From the IMG/VR virus record IMGVR_UViG_3300025806_000112, positions 1 through 32,576 of that record: DNA of 32,576 nucleotides; one strand, given 5' to 3'. The translations under genes were made by a program, and so were the position numbers. Below the pieces are notes generated by a model. The model searched no databases, was not told the DNA's origin, and saw nothing but the letters and a program-made list of their open reading frames with translations. The stretch comes from a virus. Of this stretch, positions 2-12,362 are shown piece by piece. Numbering within the stretch: position 1 is the first letter of the stretch; each line of letters starts with the position of its first letter.

Positions 2-1816
2 AAAGAAGATTTCCAAATACTGTCGGCGCGTGACCATTGCAGACTTAGGCCGGGCATGTATTTAGGTTCAACCTCAAAAGAAAAAGTCGAAAGATTCATT
101 AGCGGTCAGTGGGGCAATTATGAATACGTTCCTGCTATTATCAAAATGGTTGATGAAATCATTGATAATGCTATTGATGAAGCTATCCGTACAAACTATG
201 AATACGCAAATCAAATCTCGGTCAACGTCAACGGAAATTCAATTGAAATTTCAGACAATGGCAGAGGTATTCCTCAAGCAGAAATCCTAACACCAGACGG
301 AGATAAAATTCTTCAACCTGTCGCAGCTTGGACAAGAACTAATGCAGGTTCTTCATTCAATGATAACCGTACTACAATCGGTGCTAACGGTGTAGGTTCG
401 GCCTGTACAAACTTCATGTCAACAAAGTTTCATGGCTCTACTTGGTCAAAAGGAAATCGCGTCGACGTCGATTGTACAGATGGCGCCGCTGATATTAAAT
501 GGGATACTTCAAAGAAAGCCGGTAATGGTACTCTTGTACGGTTTACACCTGACTTTGATTTGTTCTCTATTAACACACTTGATGAAATTGACATTGAGGC
601 ATTCATTGAAGATAGATTAGCGTCACTTGAGATTGCATTTCCTGAGATTGCCTTTAAGTTCAATAAGCGTAGACTGAAAGCCTCTACTATTCGTAAGTAT
701 GCTGAAATGTATACTTCTGATAATGAAGCAAGCATTGTTATATCGCAAGGTGAGAATTCTTCTTTCTTTGTTGCTTCATCTGAAGATGGGTTTAGAACAA
801 CTTCGTATATCAATGGTGTTAATACCCGACAAGGTGGTACGTATGTCGATTACATTACTAATGGTATTGTCGATGAACTTATCAAAATGGTTAAACGTAA
901 ATATAAAATTGATGTAGCGAAATCTACTTTTAAGTCAGGTTTTACATTCGTATTGTTTGCTCGTAACTTTAAAGATCCTAAGTATGACAGTCAAACGAAA
1001 GAAAGGCTGACATCTAATTTATCTGAAGTAAAAGTACATTATGATGGCGATTCCTTTGATAAAATTGCGCGTAAGATTATGAACGCTGAAGATATCATTG
1101 GACCTATTGTCGAAGCACAGCTTGCAAAGAAGATTGCTGCTGATAAACGTGCTGCTACTCTTGCTCAAAAGAAACTCAAAAAGGTTCGAGTCGCAAAACA
1201 CATTGCTTCGACCACACGTGATTCTACTTTGTTTATTACCGAAGGCGATAGCGCAATTGGTTATTTCCTTAAAGTTCGTAATCCAAAGACAAGTGGTGCA
1301 TATCCATTACGTGGTGTTATTATGAATGTTTGGGATATGAAACCTGCTGATGTACTTAAGAATAAAGAACTTGGAGAATTGGTTGCAATACTTGGACTCG
1401 ATATTAATGATCCTGATAGTGTAGATCGTATGTACTATAATGGCATTGCAACGTTAACCGATCAGGATCATGATGGTATTGGTCACATCATGCCATTGCT
1501 AATTGCTTTCTTTTATAAATTCTGGCCTCGATTGTTTGAAGACGGTAAAGTTCATGTTGCAAGAACGCCTATTCTCATATCGTCAAAAGGTAAAGACGTT
1601 AAGTGGTTTTATACGTATGATGACGCGGCTAAATTCAAAACTGAATCTACAGGCTATCACCATCGTTACATAAAAGGTCTTGCATCACATACCGAACAAG
1701 AATACGATAAGATTATCAATACGCCAAATCTTGATACTATTACTATCGACGACCCTAATTGGTTTGAAATTATTTATGGTAAAGATAGTCAATTAAGAAA
1801 AGACTGGTTGACGTAA
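2..1816 (+). CDS. 39: Type II DNA topoisomerase, large (ATPase/TOPRIM) subunit, 5'-truncated
   Basis: ATPase and TOPRIM subunit of the phage topoisomerase; with gp52 it relaxes DNA and supports replication. The frame is open from position 2, reading KEDFQILSARDHCRLRPG before the first ATG at 56. This matches the N-terminal part of the T4 gp39 family, so the gene starts upstream of the window and 56 is an internal Met. GHKL ATP-binding motifs are visible: EIIDNAIDEA near 150-180, SDNGRGIP near 250-275 and GANGVGSA near 381-405. The TOPRIM domain is in the same chain: TEGDSA near 1238-1255 and TDQDHDG near 1457-1475. T4 splits this chain into gp39 and gp60; here it is one gene, as in many T4 relatives. 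A hairpin terminator and a new promoter follow. Confidence 0.95.
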   Translation, partial: KEDFQILSARDHCRLRPGMYLGSTSKEKVERFISGQWGNYEYVPAIIKMVDEIIDNAIDEAIRTNYEYANQISVNVNGNSIEISDNGRGIPQAEILTPDGDKILQPVAAWTRTNAGSSFNDNRTTIGANGVGSACTNFMSTKFHGSTWSKGNRVDVDCTDGAADIKWDTSKKAGNGTLVRFTPDFDLFSINTLDEIDIEAFIEDRLASLEIAFPEIAFKFNKRRLKASTIRKYAEMYTSDNEASIVISQGENSSFFVASSEDGFRTTSYINGVNTRQGGTYVDYITNGIVDELIKMVKRKYKIDVAKSTFKSGFTFVLFARNFKDPKYDSQTKERLTSNLSEVKVHYDGDSFDKIARKIMNAEDIIGPIVEAQLAKKIAADKRAATLAQKKLKKVRVAKHIASTTRDSTLFITEGDSAIGYFLKVRNPKTSGAYPLRGVIMNVWDMKPADVLKNKELGELVAILGLDINDPDSVDRMYYNGIATLTDQDHDGIGHIMPLLIAFFYKFWPRLFEDGKVHVARTPILISSKGKDVKWFYTYDDAAKFKTESTGYHHRYIKGLASHTEQEYDKIINTPNLDTITIDDPNWFEIIYGKDSQLRKDWLT

Positions 1817-1818
1817 AG

Positions 1819-1838
1819 GAATATGGATATTCTTTTTT
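1819..1838 (+). terminator. Weak AT-rich intrinsic terminator after topoisomerase large subunit
   Basis: GAATAT (1819-1824), GG and ATATTC (1827-1832) form a 6-bp palindrome that can fold as a short stem, directly followed by six Ts (1833-1838). It begins 3 nt after the stop codon and lies just upstream of the next promoter. The stem is short and AT-rich, so efficiency is doubtful. The T-rich part is also shared with the promoter cassette at 4198-4268, so it may be an upstream promoter element instead. Confidence 0.5.
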
Positions 1839-1853
1839 GTTCTAATACAGCCG

Positions 1854-1882
1854 TTGACATCAAAGTTGATTCTTGATATAAT
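1854..1882 (+). promoter_or_regulatory. Sigma70-type promoter (early)
   Basis: TTGACA at 1854-1859 and TATAAT at 1877-1882 with a 17-bp spacer: a perfect consensus host promoter. The predicted start is near 1889, leaving a short leader before the DUF551 gene at 1913. It would also serve gp52, which overlaps that gene by 1 bp. About 70 bp around it is nearly repeated at 4198-4268. Confidence 0.9.
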
Positions 1883-1912
1883 AGTACCATAAATTGAATT
1901 GAGGAATAAAAC

Positions 1913-2107
1913 ATGAGTAATTGGATTAGCGTTAAAGATGAAATGCCTGGGTTAGAACACACGATGGTCATCGTTGACTTTTACGGTGGTAACGTAGGTG
2001 TAGGATATCCCCATAAAGGAAAAATCCTCGATGAACCTATGGGTATGTTATTTAACGGTGTAACACATTGGCAACCGATGCCTGCACCATTTAAGGAACA
2101 AGAGTAA
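1913..2107 (+). CDS. DUF551-type small protein
   Basis: 64 residues. It opens with NWISVKDEMP and ends with VTHWQPMPAP, the two conserved ends of the DUF551 family (typically W-I-S-V...P at the start and THW-P-P at the end). The function of this family is unknown; it is common in phages and prophages. A GAGGAAT ribosome site precedes the ATG. The stop overlaps the gp52 start by one base (TAATG), so the two are likely translationally coupled and both are transcribed from the promoter at 1854. It sits between the two topoisomerase subunit genes; whether it affects the enzyme cannot be told from sequence. Confidence 0.85.
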   Translation: MSNWISVKDEMPGLEHTMVIVDFYGGNVGVGYPHKGKILDEPMGMLFNGVTHWQPMPAPFKEQE

Positions 2108-3417
2108 TGGAATATAGTTTATCAGAAATGGCAAACAACGAAATAAAAGGTTTTGCTTTATATACAATTGAAAGCAGAGCTATTCCGTCAATTTGTGATG
2201 GGATGAAGCCAGTTAATCGCTTTTACTTGTACTCGTCTTTAGTCAATACCGCAAAAGACTTCAAAAAGGTATCAGCCGTTTCCGGTATTGTATCAGATTA
2301 TGGATATAACCACGGAGAAGCTAGTGCTGCAGGTGCAGGCCAGTTAATGGCCGCAACGTGGAATAACAATGTTTGTTTGATTGAAGGTCGTGGATCTTTT
2401 GGTACACGTCAAGTGCCTCAAGCAGGTGCCGCTCGATATGTTTACACCAGATTACATCCTAACTTTAATAAGTATGTTAAAGATATTGATCTTGTACTTC
2501 AGCATGAAGATCCTGAGCATATTCCGCCTAAATTCTATATGCCAGTTATACCGCTCGTATTAGCAAATGGCACAAAAGGTATTGCTACTGGTTTTGCAAC
2601 AAACATACTGCCGCGTTCTACAAAAGATTTAATTAATGCGTGTAAAGAATACATCACAACTGGTAAGATCAAGAAAAACCTTCCAATTATATTTCCTGAC
2701 TTCAAAGGCAAAACTGTGGCAATGCTTGATAATCAATATGATTGTTATGGAATTGTAAAACGTGTTAACAGCAATACAGTTGCTATCAGTGAAATACCTT
2801 ATGGTACTGATCGTGAAACCTATGTAAAGATACTTGATAAACTTGAGAGCGAGAATAAAATATCTGGCTTTGAAGATCAGTGTTCATCTGATGGTTTCAC
2901 GTTTGAAGTAAGGTTTAAGCGTGCCGATCTTGCTAAGTTAAAAGAAGATCAGTTAATTGCTTTGCTTAAACTTAAAAAGTCACATACTGAAAACCTAAAT
3001 GTAATTGATTGGAACGGTACTTTACGTCAATATGACGACCATAAACAATTAATCATTGACTTTATTGAATATCGTATGGCAAATTTCGTTAAGCGTAGAA
3101 TTGAATTACGCAAAGCTGAAACGTCGGAAGCATACCGTTGGTTAACCGTTAAAAAGGAATTCGTTAGTGCCGTACTTGATGAGGTTATTAAATTCAAAGG
3201 TCGAAAGAAAGCTGATGTTACTAAACAGATTTTAACTGAAACCTTTGCAACCGAAAGCGATGCCGATCGTTTACTTAAGATGAACATTATGTCACTTACG
3301 GCTGAAATGGTAAAAGCTCTTAAAGAACAGATCAAAGCAGCTCAAGATGAACTTAAGTATTGGAAAGGAACTAATGAAGCCGAACAGTTTAACTTAGATC
3401 TTCAAGAACTATCCTAA
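2107..3417 (+). CDS. 52: Type II DNA topoisomerase, medium (DNA cleavage) subunit gp52
   Basis: 436 residues, against about 442 in T4 gp52. DNA-breaking/rejoining subunit of the phage topoisomerase, homologous to GyrA/ParC. Visible family features: IPSICDGMKPVNR near residues 26-38; DYGYNHGEAS near 64-73; GRGSFGTRQVPQAGAARYVY near 94-113, which carries the catalytic tyrosine (Tyr111 directly after Arg110 is the best candidate by analogy with Arg-Tyr in GyrA); and the IATGFATNILP motif near 158-168. The C-terminal part is helical and charged, as expected for the coiled-coil arm. It follows the DUF551 gene with a 1-bp overlap. In T4 genes 39 and 52 are well separated; here only one small gene lies between them. 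Confidence 0.96.
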   Translation: MEYSLSEMANNEIKGFALYTIESRAIPSICDGMKPVNRFYLYSSLVNTAKDFKKVSAVSGIVSDYGYNHGEASAAGAGQLMAATWNNNVCLIEGRGSFGTRQVPQAGAARYVYTRLHPNFNKYVKDIDLVLQHEDPEHIPPKFYMPVIPLVLANGTKGIATGFATNILPRSTKDLINACKEYITTGKIKKNLPIIFPDFKGKTVAMLDNQYDCYGIVKRVNSNTVAISEIPYGTDRETYVKILDKLESENKISGFEDQCSSDGFTFEVRFKRADLAKLKEDQLIALLKLKKSHTENLNVIDWNGTLRQYDDHKQLIIDFIEYRMANFVKRRIELRKAETSEAYRWLTVKKEFVSAVLDEVIKFKGRKKADVTKQILTETFATESDADRLLKMNIMSLTAEMVKALKEQIKAAQDELKYWKGTNEAEQFNLDLQELS

Positions 3418-7108: not shown

Positions 7109-10055
7109 AGTATGCGGGACTATATGCCATTGATCTAATTAAATCATCAATTCCACGGTTATTGTTATTCACAATAGTTGTATTATTTGATGAAGTATTA
7201 TTAACCGCACTTGTATTGATTGCTGAAACTACAGCATCAGTTCCTGATTGTTTATCCATATCACTTAGTTGATTATTAGCAATCTGTGCGTCCCTTAATG
7301 CCGAAACTGGTTTATCAGACTCCAAGTTGGGTGATACCATATCGCCACCAAACATTTCCTTTAGGCCAAGTGGATCAGGCATCATTGACATTATAGAACT
7401 AGTATCGCCACCAAACATTTCCTTTAGGCCAAGTGGATCAGGCATCATTGACATTATAGAACTACTATCGTCACCAAACATTTCCTTTAGGCCAAGTGGA
7501 TCAGGCATCATTGACATTATAGAACTACTATCGTCACCAAACAACATTTCGCTAATACCAAGCGGATCAGGCATCATTGACATTATAGAACTACTATCGT
7601 CACCAAACATTTCCTTTAGACCAAGCGGATCAGGCAGCATTGAATTAATCTTTTCAAGTGGTGCATAGCCACGCTTAGCCTCGTCAACTTCAACTCTGCC
7701 GTCATTTAAGCGTGCTTCCGGCGGCGCATCTTGAGCCTTTGTTACTAAGGCACTTTCCTGTAGTGCCTGCTCTTTCATTATAGCGTTTTCTACGATTGAA
7801 GACGTGCTACTCGTTTCGAGGTCAAATCCTTTGAAATTACTAGCTTCTTGGTCTTTTTGTTCAGGAAACGAATAAGCTTGAGGCTCTAAAGTAACTTCGC
7901 CATCAACAACTTTAACACCTAACGCTTCACGTTTAGCAACTTCTTCTTGAATAAATTTATAATCTTCAGCGTTTAGTGTATCGGAGCTTTTCAATATTGA
8001 TTTAAGTTCGCCTGTTGATACATCAGTAATAGCGCTACGATCTATTGAAGCATCAGTAAATAAGCCGCCATCATTAAAGAAATCAGACGTTGCCTGTTCA
8101 CTTGCTTTCTCAGTTTTTGTCACTTTAAGTGCAGCAATTTCTTCGTTAAGTTCAGTAATTTCTTCGTTAAGTTCAGCTGCAACTAAAGGATTAGTATCAG
8201 GATCTTCAGCTTCTGCCTTCCTAGCTTTAATAGCTTCTTCTTTACGCGCAATATCTTTATCTTCTTGAGTCATATCAGCATCGTCACCGGTGCTAACTCC
8301 TATTGATTCTAATATGCTATCAGGTATAAACGACTTTGCCCAATCTGGTATTATAGCAGCAATAAACGATTTTATAGCATTACCTATTGTTTCAACCAAA
8401 CCTACAACAAGATCTTTTATTGCTGTGAATGGTGATAGAATAATATCAATGATGCCGCCGAATATACTGCTCAGGCCGCCAAATATTAAGCCAAGATCGA
8501 ACGTAAATATGCCTTTTATAATATCAAAGATACCGCTAAAGATTTCGCCGAACCCGTTAAATAGGTCGCCGATAAGTGCACCAAATACTTCAAACGGTAC
8601 AGAGATTACATCAAATACGCTCTTGAATAAATCAATAACTAATCCTATTTTCTCTTTAATTATATCGACAAAACTAAATGAGTCAAGCATCTTTGAAAAG
8701 TTATCAAAGCCTAAAGCATCGGCAATCCAAGAAATTAAACCCTTAGGAATATCAAGTATAATACCGATGAAGTTACCAATGAAACTGCTAAAGAATTCTT
8801 TCAGCCCTTCAAAGATTGAACCTGTATCGCTAAACACGTCAAACGCATCACTAAATGCCTCGACCAAACTGTATATTGCAATACCTATAGCTGCGACTAC
8901 GGCCGCAATTGCTAAAACTGGACCTGCGCCTAATGCACCTAACACACCACCTATGGTAGCGAACACACCACCTATAACACCTAATGATGTGCCCACAGTC
9001 GCAATGCCTGCAGTGATTGAACCAATTACACTAATAACGCCCATAATTGCTGCTATAACACCAGCAATGGCTAATACAGCTGAAACTAATGGATTATCTT
9101 TCACAAAGTCTTCAAGACCTTCGGTGCTTCCACTAAATAGATCAGTGATTGCAGTTATACCTTGCGTAAAGACTTTCATAACCTCGTCTAATATCTCCAT
9201 TGCTTTTTCTGGAGCAACGAACAACATTATCAAACCAGCTATACCAATACCTTTTGCAGCGCCGCCGGCTATTTGTCCTAAACCTTCTCCAAGCTTTGAA
9301 ACACCATCATTTAAGTTAGTCATTGCGGCAGCCATCTTACCTGTTACGGTATTCGATTCACGTATGTCTTCTTGAGACTTTTCTGACTTTCCAGCATCAA
9401 TAGTTAGGTTTGAAAAGGCCTCAAGTTGATTAAGCGCGATTTCGCGAGATTCAGCTGATGAGGTGTCCAATGTGCTTCTTAAACGTTCAAATTCTTCGCT
9501 TAACTGTTCACCATTGTTTAGTTCTTTAAGACTGACTGATATATCAGATGTAATATTATCAATGTCGACTTTTATTTTTTGGTCTGATAATGCAACTTTA
9601 AGTTCTTCGATAGAATTGGGGGTAATAACAGTTTCACTAGATGTATTGCTGGCGGTTTCCTTTAATGACTCAGTAGTTTCCTTTATTGCTGCGGTAGTGT
9701 CCTTTGAAGCCATGACTATAGCTTTGTTAGAACTAACAGTTTCACTAGGAACGCTTTTAATATCAGTTTCGGTTTTTAGCTTCTGTTTGGATATAACGTC
9801 TTTAAGTTCTTTAATTGACTCGTTTATATCTTCAAAGATTTTGGCATCTTGAATGCTTTCTTCAGTTTCTAATTTCTGCATTGAACCAGTCATGCTATCT
9901 GATACTAATGCAAAACCGATTTCAAGTGTTGCCCCAAGAGATTTGAAACTATCATTGATAGCATCAAATATTTCATTAAGGTATATTGATTCGCTTTCTT
10001 CAATACTATCTGAAGATTCTTTAATTTGGTTTATAACAGCCGTTAGTGTTGACAT
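7107..10055 (-). CDS. Tail tape measure protein (gp29-type role)
   Basis: 982 residues; sets tail length and is packed inside the tube. The N-terminal 260 residues are helical and charged with many Ser/Thr/Glu heptad-like stretches. Residues about 270-580 are strongly hydrophobic and glycine-rich (membrane-like helices), typical of tape measures. A charged helical part follows, then five tandem repeats (residues about 806-905) and an Asn-rich end. By the usual 0.15 nm per residue, the tail would be near 147 nm (inference). The ribosome site is GAGGAAATAG just before the ATG. It lies directly after the assembly chaperone genes, the expected place. Sequence similarity to T4 gp29 itself (590 aa) is not visible to me. 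Confidence 0.85.
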   Translation of the reverse strand: MSTLTAVINQIKESSDSIEESESIYLNEIFDAINDSFKSLGATLEIGFALVSDSMTGSMQKLETEESIQDAKIFEDINESIKELKDVISKQKLKTETDIKSVPSETVSSNKAIVMASKDTTAAIKETTESLKETASNTSSETVITPNSIEELKVALSDQKIKVDIDNITSDISVSLKELNNGEQLSEEFERLRSTLDTSSAESREIALNQLEAFSNLTIDAGKSEKSQEDIRESNTVTGKMAAAMTNLNDGVSKLGEGLGQIAGGAAKGIGIAGLIMLFVAPEKAMEILDEVMKVFTQGITAITDLFSGSTEGLEDFVKDNPLVSAVLAIAGVIAAIMGVISVIGSITAGIATVGTSLGVIGGVFATIGGVLGALGAGPVLAIAAVVAAIGIAIYSLVEAFSDAFDVFSDTGSIFEGLKEFFSSFIGNFIGIILDIPKGLISWIADALGFDNFSKMLDSFSFVDIIKEKIGLVIDLFKSVFDVISVPFEVFGALIGDLFNGFGEIFSGIFDIIKGIFTFDLGLIFGGLSSIFGGIIDIILSPFTAIKDLVVGLVETIGNAIKSFIAAIIPDWAKSFIPDSILESIGVSTGDDADMTQEDKDIARKEEAIKARKAEAEDPDTNPLVAAELNEEITELNEEIAALKVTKTEKASEQATSDFFNDGGLFTDASIDRSAITDVSTGELKSILKSSDTLNAEDYKFIQEEVAKREALGVKVVDGEVTLEPQAYSFPEQKDQEASNFKGFDLETSSTSSIVENAIMKEQALQESALVTKAQDAPPEARLNDGRVEVDEAKRGYAPLEKINSMLPDPLGLKEMFGDDSSSIMSMMPDPLGISEMLFGDDSSSIMSMMPDPLGLKEMFGDDSSSIMSMMPDPLGLKEMFGGDTSSIMSMMPDPLGLKEMFGGDMVSPNLESDKPVSALRDAQIANNQLSDMDKQSGTDAVVSAINTSAVNNTSSNNTTIVNNNNRGIDDLIRSMAYSPAY
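7341..7640 (-). repeat. Five tandem repeats in tape measure C-terminus
   Basis: Coding-strand units start at 7640, 7577, 7511, 7448 and 7385. Four are full (63, 66, 63 and 63 bp) and the last is 45 bp. Each encodes MMPDPLGLKEMFGDDSSSIM plus Ser, with small changes: MLP in unit 1; GISEML with one extra residue in unit 2; GGD in units 4 and 5. DNA identity between units is very high, so the array is recent or kept alike by recombination. The phase is kept: unit lengths are multiples of three. Confidence 0.97.
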
Positions 10056-10324: not shown

Positions 10325-11205
10325 TTACCGCCTGTTATTGCGTTCTTGAATCTTTTGATTCTCTTCTTCAATGTGAGCCGATAATAATGCAACGTAGATC
10401 TGTCTTTCCCAAGGTGCCATAGCCTCAAGTTCACTTAAAGAATACTTGTGAAATTGGACCATGGCAAAATTAGTCTTATAATAATTCTCAAGAGAATCGT
10501 GGGAAAGACCAATTAGAAAAAATTCTTCAGACCCTCAATAGTCAGCTCGTTAGTTGCACCACACTTCATACAATTAAATTTTGAATCGAGAACCGCGTGT
10601 GGGGTGTCTTTTAATGCATCAGCTATTGTTTTTAATTGCATCGATGATAATGACTCAATAAATTCAATCAGCTCTTTTGTTGTATAATCATCACTTGAAT
10701 GTATTTCATCACTGGTGTAAATAGTATCAATACATGATACAATTGTTGACAGCTCATCAGTATTCTCTTCTTCAGACATACGCTCAGCATCTTTAAATGA
10801 TGGGTACTTTAACACAATGCCTACTTCATCGGTCAATTTGATTTTAAGATCGGTTTCTGTTTCTGTTACTCTACAGTCTTCAAGGTTCAATGAAACTTCA
10901 TTGCTATGTTGACATTCTTTACATTTAATTAAAACATCAGAAGTTTCGCCAATTGACTTTGACCTAATTTTAATAAACAAGTATTCAAAATCATACATTG
11001 TTAGTTTGCTTGCATCAATTTTGCCTAATGTGCAAGACGTTATTAAATCGCGTGCAGCTCGGATCATTTGCCCTTTATCACCAGATTCTTTTGCTAAAAG
11101 CAACATCTTTTGGTCTTTTACAGTAAAAGGCTTATAGGTAATCATCTTCTTTGTTGATGGGATCTTAACTTTGTAAGTTACGGAATTCAGTTTTGGGAGT
11201 GCCAT
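10325..11205 (-). CDS. Tail assembly chaperone long form, made by -1 frameshift (gp26-type + 63 aa)
   Basis: Proposed product of complement(join(10325..10516,10516..11205)): 293 residues, the 230-aa gp26-like protein extended by 63 residues. The extension begins LIGLSHDSLENYYKTNF, and its end (MAPWERQIYVALLSAHIEEE) resembles the conserved part of tail assembly chaperone downstream ORFs. The shift site is T TTT TTC (10522-10516) immediately before the 0-frame TAA. The only Met codons in the extension's N-terminal part (10462 and later) lack a ribosome site, so frameshifting is the natural way to express it. Position upstream of the tape measure matches G/GT of lambda. Seen: slip site, frame, stem; inferred: function and efficiency. 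Confidence 0.75.
10402..10522 (-). promoter_or_regulatory. Programmed -1 frameshift signal with long-range stem
   Basis: On the minus strand the heptamer T TTT TTC (10522-10516) is read in frame just before TAA (10515-10513). After a 6-nt spacer, GTCTTTCCCA (10509-10500) is perfectly complementary to TGGGAAAGAC (10411-10402): ten pairs, five of them G-C. The 88-nt loop contains a smaller hairpin, ATTCT-CTTG-AGAAT (10497-10484). Slip site, spacer of 5-9 nt and downstream structure are the three standard parts of a -1 signal. Confidence 0.75.
10513..11205 (-). CDS. 26: gp26-type baseplate hub / tail assembly protein (short form)
   Basis: 230 residues (T4 gp26 is 208). The opening MALPKLNSVTYKVKIPST-KK, then KPFTVKDQKMLLLAKES, the YLFIKIRSKSIGE segment near 75-87 and the LTDEVGIVLKYP segment near 124-135 fit the T4_baseplate (gp26) family as found in marine T4-like phages. 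Two Cys pairs, Cys95/Cys98 and Cys212/Cys215 (CKEC and CMKC), could bind one zinc ion. In T4 gp26 is classed as a baseplate hub component needed for hub assembly. Here its place before the tape measure and the frameshift site at its last codons suggest a lambda gpG-like chaperone role (inference). The ribosome site is GAGGTAAATA before the ATG. Confidence 0.85.
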   Translation of the reverse strand: MALPKLNSVTYKVKIPSTKKMITYKPFTVKDQKMLLLAKESGDKGQMIRAARDLITSCTLGKIDASKLTMYDFEYLFIKIRSKSIGETSDVLIKCKECQHSNEVSLNLEDCRVTETETDLKIKLTDEVGIVLKYPSFKDAERMSEEENTDELSTIVSCIDTIYTSDEIHSSDDYTTKELIEFIESLSSMQLKTIADALKDTPHAVLDSKFNCMKCGATNELTIEGLKNFF

Positions 11206-11238: not shown

Positions 11239-11778
11239 TTATTTATCGACCGATTTATCTATGATGTATCTATCATACGCAAATGTTACGGTTAATCGGG
11301 TTATATCGTTTTCATTTACGTTGCTAAGTTCTATCGATGATTGAACAATTGGGTATGCTTTTTCAAGAGTTACGTTATAAATCTTTTTATTAGTTGTGTC
11401 CAATTGATGTATATTCACCGTGCTAGCATACGTGTCTTTATATCCTAGCCTATAAGTGTCGGGGTCAATAATTTCAGCCATCCATGCATCAAAGAATTTT
11501 TTAGTTTGGTAATCATTAGTTAGGAGGAACGTTATAGTGACAGGATCATCTATAAATGTATAAACCGTTTTAAGAGTTTCACGGTTAGTGGTATATTCTG
11601 AAGTTCCTAAAGTTCGCCCAGGCAGTGTTACGCTTTCAGCTAATACAATTCCATCCACGCCCTCAAATGCTTTAATACCTGATATGCGTTTAGCAATGTC
11701 GACTGACCATTTGTTTGATCTGGCTAATCCACCTCCACCTCTTATACTTGCCTTTAAAGTATCAATGGTTGAACTCAT
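11239..11778 (-). CDS. gp19-fold tail tube or tube-initiator protein
   Basis: 179 residues from the ATG at 11778. This start is preferred over the ATG eight codons upstream because GAGGAAAAAC precedes it and it overlaps the upstream gene's stop in an ATGA unit. The segment ESVTLPGRTLGTSEYTTNRE followed by a D-P-V-T-I-T-F strand and a KKFFDAWMAEI helix matches the T4 gp19 layout (A-L-P-A-G then strands, then a K-F-V-D-W helix). It is either the main tube protein of this tail or a gp54-like initiator; the place right before the chaperone and tape measure favours a tube or tube-end role. I cannot separate these by eye. Confidence 0.7.
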   Translation of the reverse strand: MSSTIDTLKASIRGGGGLARSNKWSVDIAKRISGIKAFEGVDGIVLAESVTLPGRTLGTSEYTTNRETLKTVYTFIDDPVTITFLLTNDYQTKKFFDAWMAEIIDPDTYRLGYKDTYASTVNIHQLDTTNKKIYNVTLEKAYPIVQSSIELSNVNENDITRLTVTFAYDRYIIDKSVDK

Positions 11779-12362
11779 ATGTTTTTCCTCGATTCGGCCC
11801 AAACTTTACTTTGTGAAGCCTTTTGAAATTGCTGTGTTGGTAAGAACGTCGCTATCTCCCACTCAGGAGGTTCAATCAAAACAATGCGTGAATCTATTTG
11901 AGAAGTTAAATACCTCTTGAAACAAGGTTTGAAGTGTTTCATTTTTGATATACTTTTAAGCAATTGATAACTGACTTTAAATTTAGTAGTTTCGTCATAC
12001 CTTTTATTGTTTGTAGTTTCAAGTAAACCATCAAATAATATTGCTCTAAGTTTAGGCGGTAGGTAATGGAGGTTCAATCCGTAAAACCCATCTTTAGTAC
12101 GTTCAACCATTATGACTAACGGAAACGAATCATAATAAGGCAAAGTCTTACGATGCTTTGGATCATAGAAAAAATGATAGAGAGAGCCAACACCGACACG
12201 TTGTCTTTTAATCAATGCAGGATCTTTTAGAATATTCTGACGGTTGAGGTCGTTCATATTCTTTAGTTTATTCATAAACCATTGCGCCGATTCTTTTGTG
12301 CGAGGTTGTACTCCACCGCGAAATGCTTGTATCTCAAGACTTCTGAAAATTGATTTATCCAT
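11775..12362 (-). CDS. Conserved T4-type marine phage virion-associated protein
   Basis: 195 residues. Recognisable conserved blocks: YHFFYDPKHRKTLPYYDSFP near residues 62-81, GFYGLNLHYLPPKLRAILFD near 92-111, and a C-terminal block with W-E-I-A-x-F-L-P-T-x-x-F-x-K-A near 166-180. This arrangement is common in T4-like marine phages next to gp4 or the tail genes, usually without a named function; no T4 homologue is clear to me. The ribosome site is AGGAAAAAG. It lies between gp4 and the tube-fold gene, so a role in head or tail joining or virion assembly is plausible but unproven. Confidence 0.75.
   Translation of the reverse strand: MDKSIFRSLEIQAFRGGVQPRTKESAQWFMNKLKNMNDLNRQNILKDPALIKRQRVGVGSLYHFFYDPKHRKTLPYYDSFPLVIMVERTKDGFYGLNLHYLPPKLRAILFDGLLETTNNKRYDETTKFKVSYQLLKSISKMKHFKPCFKRYLTSQIDSRIVLIEPPEWEIATFLPTQQFQKASQSKVWAESRKNI

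Follow-up and report, generated by a model that had tools for sequence, protein, structure and literature searches.

A conserved poly-T slip signal and a candidate programmed -1 frameshift in the gp26-like putative tail-assembly chaperone gene of an uncultured T4-related phage

The window, meaning the whole analysed stretch of 32,576 nt from the IMG/VR record IMGVR_UViG_3300025806_000112, originates from an uncultured lineage whose gp6-like wedge protein is about 33% identical to those of Pelagibacter and Methylophilales phages. The locus considered here is read from the minus strand and includes a gp26-like gene (11205-10513) coding for a putative short tail-assembly chaperone of 230 aa, the equivalent of G or TAC-N, with a tail-tube-like gene (11239-11781) located 5′ of it in the same direction. 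Between the chaperone and the tape-measure genes there is a gene (10319-10056) coding for a putative small membrane protein of 87 aa, its membrane character being judged from sequence alone, which matches phrog_27150 (7.9e-10), a family with no assigned function. It is followed by the gene for a tape-measure protein of 982 aa (10055-7107; phrog_58, tail length tape measure, 4.5e-17), the presumed client of the chaperone. The gene order, i.e. tail-tube-like gene, chaperone, 87-aa protein and tape measure, matches the position of G/GT between the tube and the tape measure. The tape-measure protein has near-perfect tandem repeats (DDSSSIMSMMPDPLGLKEMFG) close to its C-terminus (7327-7668), and a 361-codon open frame on the plus strand (8290-9375) lies antisense to its gene, being probably a codon-bias artefact.

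Both coding parts of the chaperone locus were found to be homologous to the T4 gp26/gp51 families. The 230-aa protein matches the Pfam family T4_baseplate (PF12322, 7.8e-61) and phrog_150, annotated as baseplate hub (5.1e-66), while a T-like domain of 63 aa encoded with its stop codon in the -1 frame (10516-10325) matches phrog_634, annotated as baseplate hub assembly catalyst (4.2e-26), and aligns with the last 45 columns of phrog_150 as well. The gp26-like protein of the window possesses two CxxC pairs (CKEC and CMKC) resembling a zinc ribbon, instead of which many cyanophage relatives carry DDGET/NPKT-type loops.

The gp26-like gene ends with AAG AAT TTT TTC TAA (10527-10513), where the slip heptamer T TTT TTC (10522-10516) is in frame and immediately precedes the 0-frame TAA (10515-10513) terminating the short form. 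These features agree with a preliminary description of this DNA, which had proposed a programmed -1 frameshift on the basis of a slippery heptamer placed directly before the stop, a -1 frame of 63 codons with no start codon that has a ribosome site, and a downstream stem. The -1 frame, LIGLSHDSLENYYKTNFAMVQ...NNRR, extends from 10516 to 10328 and is closed by TAA at 10327-10325; the only ATG before its conserved core is residue 19 (10462), which lies inside the domain and has no Shine-Dalgarno sequence, and no GTG or TTG occurs earlier. After a 6-nt spacer, GTCTTTCCCA (10509-10500) forms a perfect 10-bp match with TGGGAAAGAC (10411-10402), enclosing a loop of 88 nt. The same inspection revealed an element absent from that description, namely the Shine-Dalgarno (SD)-like sequence GAGGG (10536-10532), located 9 nt 5′ of the heptamer.

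Relatives were collected either via the gp26 part or via the T part alone, the latter being not selected for the slip site since they were retrieved through the T part only. Wherever the two parts occupy different frames (172 loci), the T part is without exception read in -1, and an in-frame TTTTTT[C/T/A/G] precedes the gp26 stop by 0-24 nt. The same holds for all 91 representatives remaining after redundancy reduction at <80% nucleotide identity, in which the last base of the heptamer is C in 63, T in 18, A in nine and G in one. The less usual T TTT TTG was found at the same place in Rhizobium phage P10VF (L091:2400-2700). Upstream in the gp26 genes, in-frame T TTT TTN occurs at only 16 of 20,544 codon positions, and just five of 75 Phe-Phe pairs elsewhere in these genes are encoded as TTT-TTC, so the slip signal is far above chance. 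None of the 12 loci whose long form is encoded in frame has a poly-T slip. The frameshift layout is also present in phages of Pelagibacter, Pseudomonas, Caulobacter, Rhizobium, Aeromonas and Vibrio. The comparison of homologues suggested in the preliminary description thus showed conservation of the heptamer, of the -1 reading frame and of the pairing arms, and as far as can be judged from sequence the signal is real and is kept in every examined relative with the split-frame layout.

The regions on both sides of the heptamer were compared with synonymous recodings. For the 27 nt 5′ of the slip, the mean anti-SD pairing energy across the 91 representatives was -6.88 kcal/mol vs -5.34 (sd 0.15) for the recodings, so that this SD-like element, which precedes the heptamer by about 9 nt, lies approximately 10 sd past the synonymous null. 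Folding of the 129 nt downstream gave a mean z of -2.24 (n = 91), with z = -4.95 for the window. The stem was analysed in a gapless alignment of 36 sequences of the window's group, in which 86% of the cells are paired, compared with 38-61% when the arms are slid. Its covariation score was 0.170 vs 0.100 for shuffled alignments, with none of 500 shuffles scoring as high (relatedness ignored), and RNAalifold recovered most of the helix unaided. Covariation involves both the 5′ arm, GUCUUUCCCA, and the 3′ arm, UGGGAAAGAC, the latter being located within the codons for PWER. Two of the pairs link third codon positions on both arms, i.e. synonymous sites, and covary: CTT..GAA with CTC..GAG (p = 6e-4) and a second pair (p = 1.8e-5; Fisher test in both cases, relatedness ignored). 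There are exceptions, pair 15-108 being unpaired in 15 and pair 8-115 in 16 of the 36 sequences. In the other group of relatives, a local hairpin is often found in place of the long-range stem (mean z -1.61 for the first 60 nt). The retention of the heptamer, of the -1 reading frame and of a stem with compensatory changes supports the proposed programmed -1 frameshift.

The -1 part also offers a link to T4 gp51. According to a 2010 review (PMC3004832), gp51 is essential and its function is unknown, and it is required although absent from the particle. T4 gp51 matches PF12322 over residues 1-201 (3.9e-52), and in phrog_150 (282 columns) it covers columns 13-280; T4 gp26 ends at column 235, before the T part. 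Pairwise BLASTP of T4 gp26 against gp51 gave 2e-6, and profile comparison backs both halves of the gp51 match. When the sequences are aligned jointly, the junction predicted for the fusion, FF-RL/LI, coincides with VFKLL of T4 gp51 with no gaps. Judging by these alignments, T4 gp51 is a paralogue of gp26 that spans its full length and ends in the same T-like domain, which is why the predicted frameshift product is colinear with it. The preliminary description knew of no such shift in T4 itself and was right, as in gp51 the T-like domain is already attached.

A search of 18 genomes divided them into 11 with the frameshift layout and one gp26-family gene, and seven with a two-gene layout comprising a short and a long gene, namely T4, RB43, four further T4-type genomes and one Campylobacter phage; no genome of the 18 had both layouts. 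The Campylobacter phage was considered as a candidate for a single in-frame form and rejected, since a second, short copy is located about 9 kb away. By gene content, T4-type phages have two genes where the window phage has one gene and a slip site. It is a clean case of frameshifting and gene duplication as alternative routes to one protein pair, and the comparison suggests a direct role for T4 gp51, which should be the long-form chaperone.

The main competing explanation is that the gp51/T part is a separate small protein, produced by termination-reinitiation or from its own start, as the annotation of cyanophages assumes (e.g. S-PM2 gp51, 57 aa). In public records the two parts are indeed annotated as distinct genes, and an ATG is present in the -1 frame of 37 of the 91 representatives, mostly a few codons from the gp26 stop, where independent initiation would be possible. 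However, the 'gp51' start is annotated at differing, inconsistent places or the gene is omitted, and 33 of the 91 representatives, the window included, lack any ATG, GTG or TTG between the last upstream stop of the -1 frame and residue 12 of the T part, i.e. before the conserved core, so the protein is conserved in a frame that needs no start codon. The preliminary description had named a well-supported separate start in homologues among the findings that would speak against frameshifting; the downstream ORF has no conserved start. Separate translation also fails to account for the universal slip site, for an SD-like element that precedes it by about 9 nt or for the colinearity with T4 gp51, and is considered here very improbable. 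It is instead proposed that the T-like domain would be translated only as part of a fusion with a total length of 293 aa. Because the public records split or truncate the gene, listing gp51 as a short 'catalyst' whose start varies, many annotations of T4-like phages lack the predicted long-form protein.

Slippage of the RNA polymerase on the T run, rather than of the ribosome, would suit runs of at least six T, which reach eight T in some relatives (e.g. C48C1), but most of the runs consist of only six T followed by C, their register is fixed as X XXY YYZ, and the conserved SD-like element together with the covarying downstream stem suits ribosomal stimulation, which makes transcriptional slippage less probable still. 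Gene decay or a sequencing error has hardly any chance of explaining the split ORF since, despite homopolymer runs being error-prone, three contigs (L001-L003) carry a gp26 identical to that of the window and the same layout recurs in 91 lineages with <80% identity, a cross-lineage conservation that refutes it.

A programmed -1 ribosomal frameshift yielding two forms of one tail-assembly chaperone is thus regarded as very likely, judging from the conserved sequence features. Most ribosomes would terminate at the TAA, yielding the 230-aa short form, while a minority, held by the SD-like GAGGG behind and the stem ahead, would slip from TTT-TTC to TTT-TTT and produce the 293-aa long form with the T-like domain. 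On the model of lambda G/GT, coating of the tape-measure protein, whose gene lies just downstream, would fall to the short form, and recruitment of tail-tube subunits to the long form. In T4-type phages the same two products would come from the paralogues gp26 (short) and gp51 (long).

The proposed scheme resembles lambda gpG/gpGT, in which ribosomes slip into the -1 frame close to the 3′ end of the gene preceding the tape measure and a long form with a C-terminal T domain results (PMC5009743). The chaperone of the window differs in its length (about 230 aa vs 140), and its binding to the tube and the tape measure is suggested by analogy. No sequence homology between it and lambda gpG was detectable with hhalign (0.2%). 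A Foldseek search of the PDB with AlphaFold2 models of a T4-type gp51 and of the window gp26 gave no significant match, the values for the HK97 chaperone gp14 (2ob9) being below significance (E 2.6-3.4, prob 0.30 and 0.12), and no solved structure was found by sequence. Since neither the sequence nor the fold comparisons with lambda and HK97 are significant, it is the position and organisation of the genes that point to membership of the G/GT chaperone family.

The -1 frameshift signal of E. coli dnaX combines an upstream SD-like element, a slip heptamer and a downstream stem. The signal in the window has the same three parts and differs in its T TTT TTC slip and its stem over an 88-nt loop, as well as in being viral, dnaX being a cellular gene.

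A 2016 review described the G-T frameshift as widespread in long-tailed phages 'except T4' (PMC5009743). The chaperone genes of T4-like phages were later identified and named by Vladimirov, Gautam and Davidson (2022, Virology 566:9-15), as cited in two subsequent papers: the PRFect paper (PMC10885494) refers to that work on T4-like phages in which the short and the long form each have their own gene, and the Adele paper (PMC12846349) on T4-like phages with poly-T slip signals in the gene for the short form. Going by these citations, the kind of system is already known, because the T4-like chaperone genes were named there and the work was later credited with the poly-T signals. The window shares with the T4-like gp26/gp51 chaperones the same gene families and a short and a long form, and differs in its uncultured lineage and in that the SD-like element and the covarying long-range stem were measured here. 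The window is a well-supported further case, to which the present analysis mainly adds the strength of the RNA evidence.

More broadly, there may be an even chance that the T4 superfamily has retained a frameshift signal of three parts (SD-like element, T TTT TTN and structure) with a lineage-dependent downstream stimulator, represented in the window's group by the 88-nt-loop stem that extends into the PWER codons and in many cyanophages by local hairpins, and that the essential 'hub catalyst' gp51 of T4 is the frameshift product made a separate gene by duplication. Elsewhere in the window (56-3417), two genes of 586 and 436 aa flanking a small ORF (1913-2107) appear to code for type II topoisomerase subunits.
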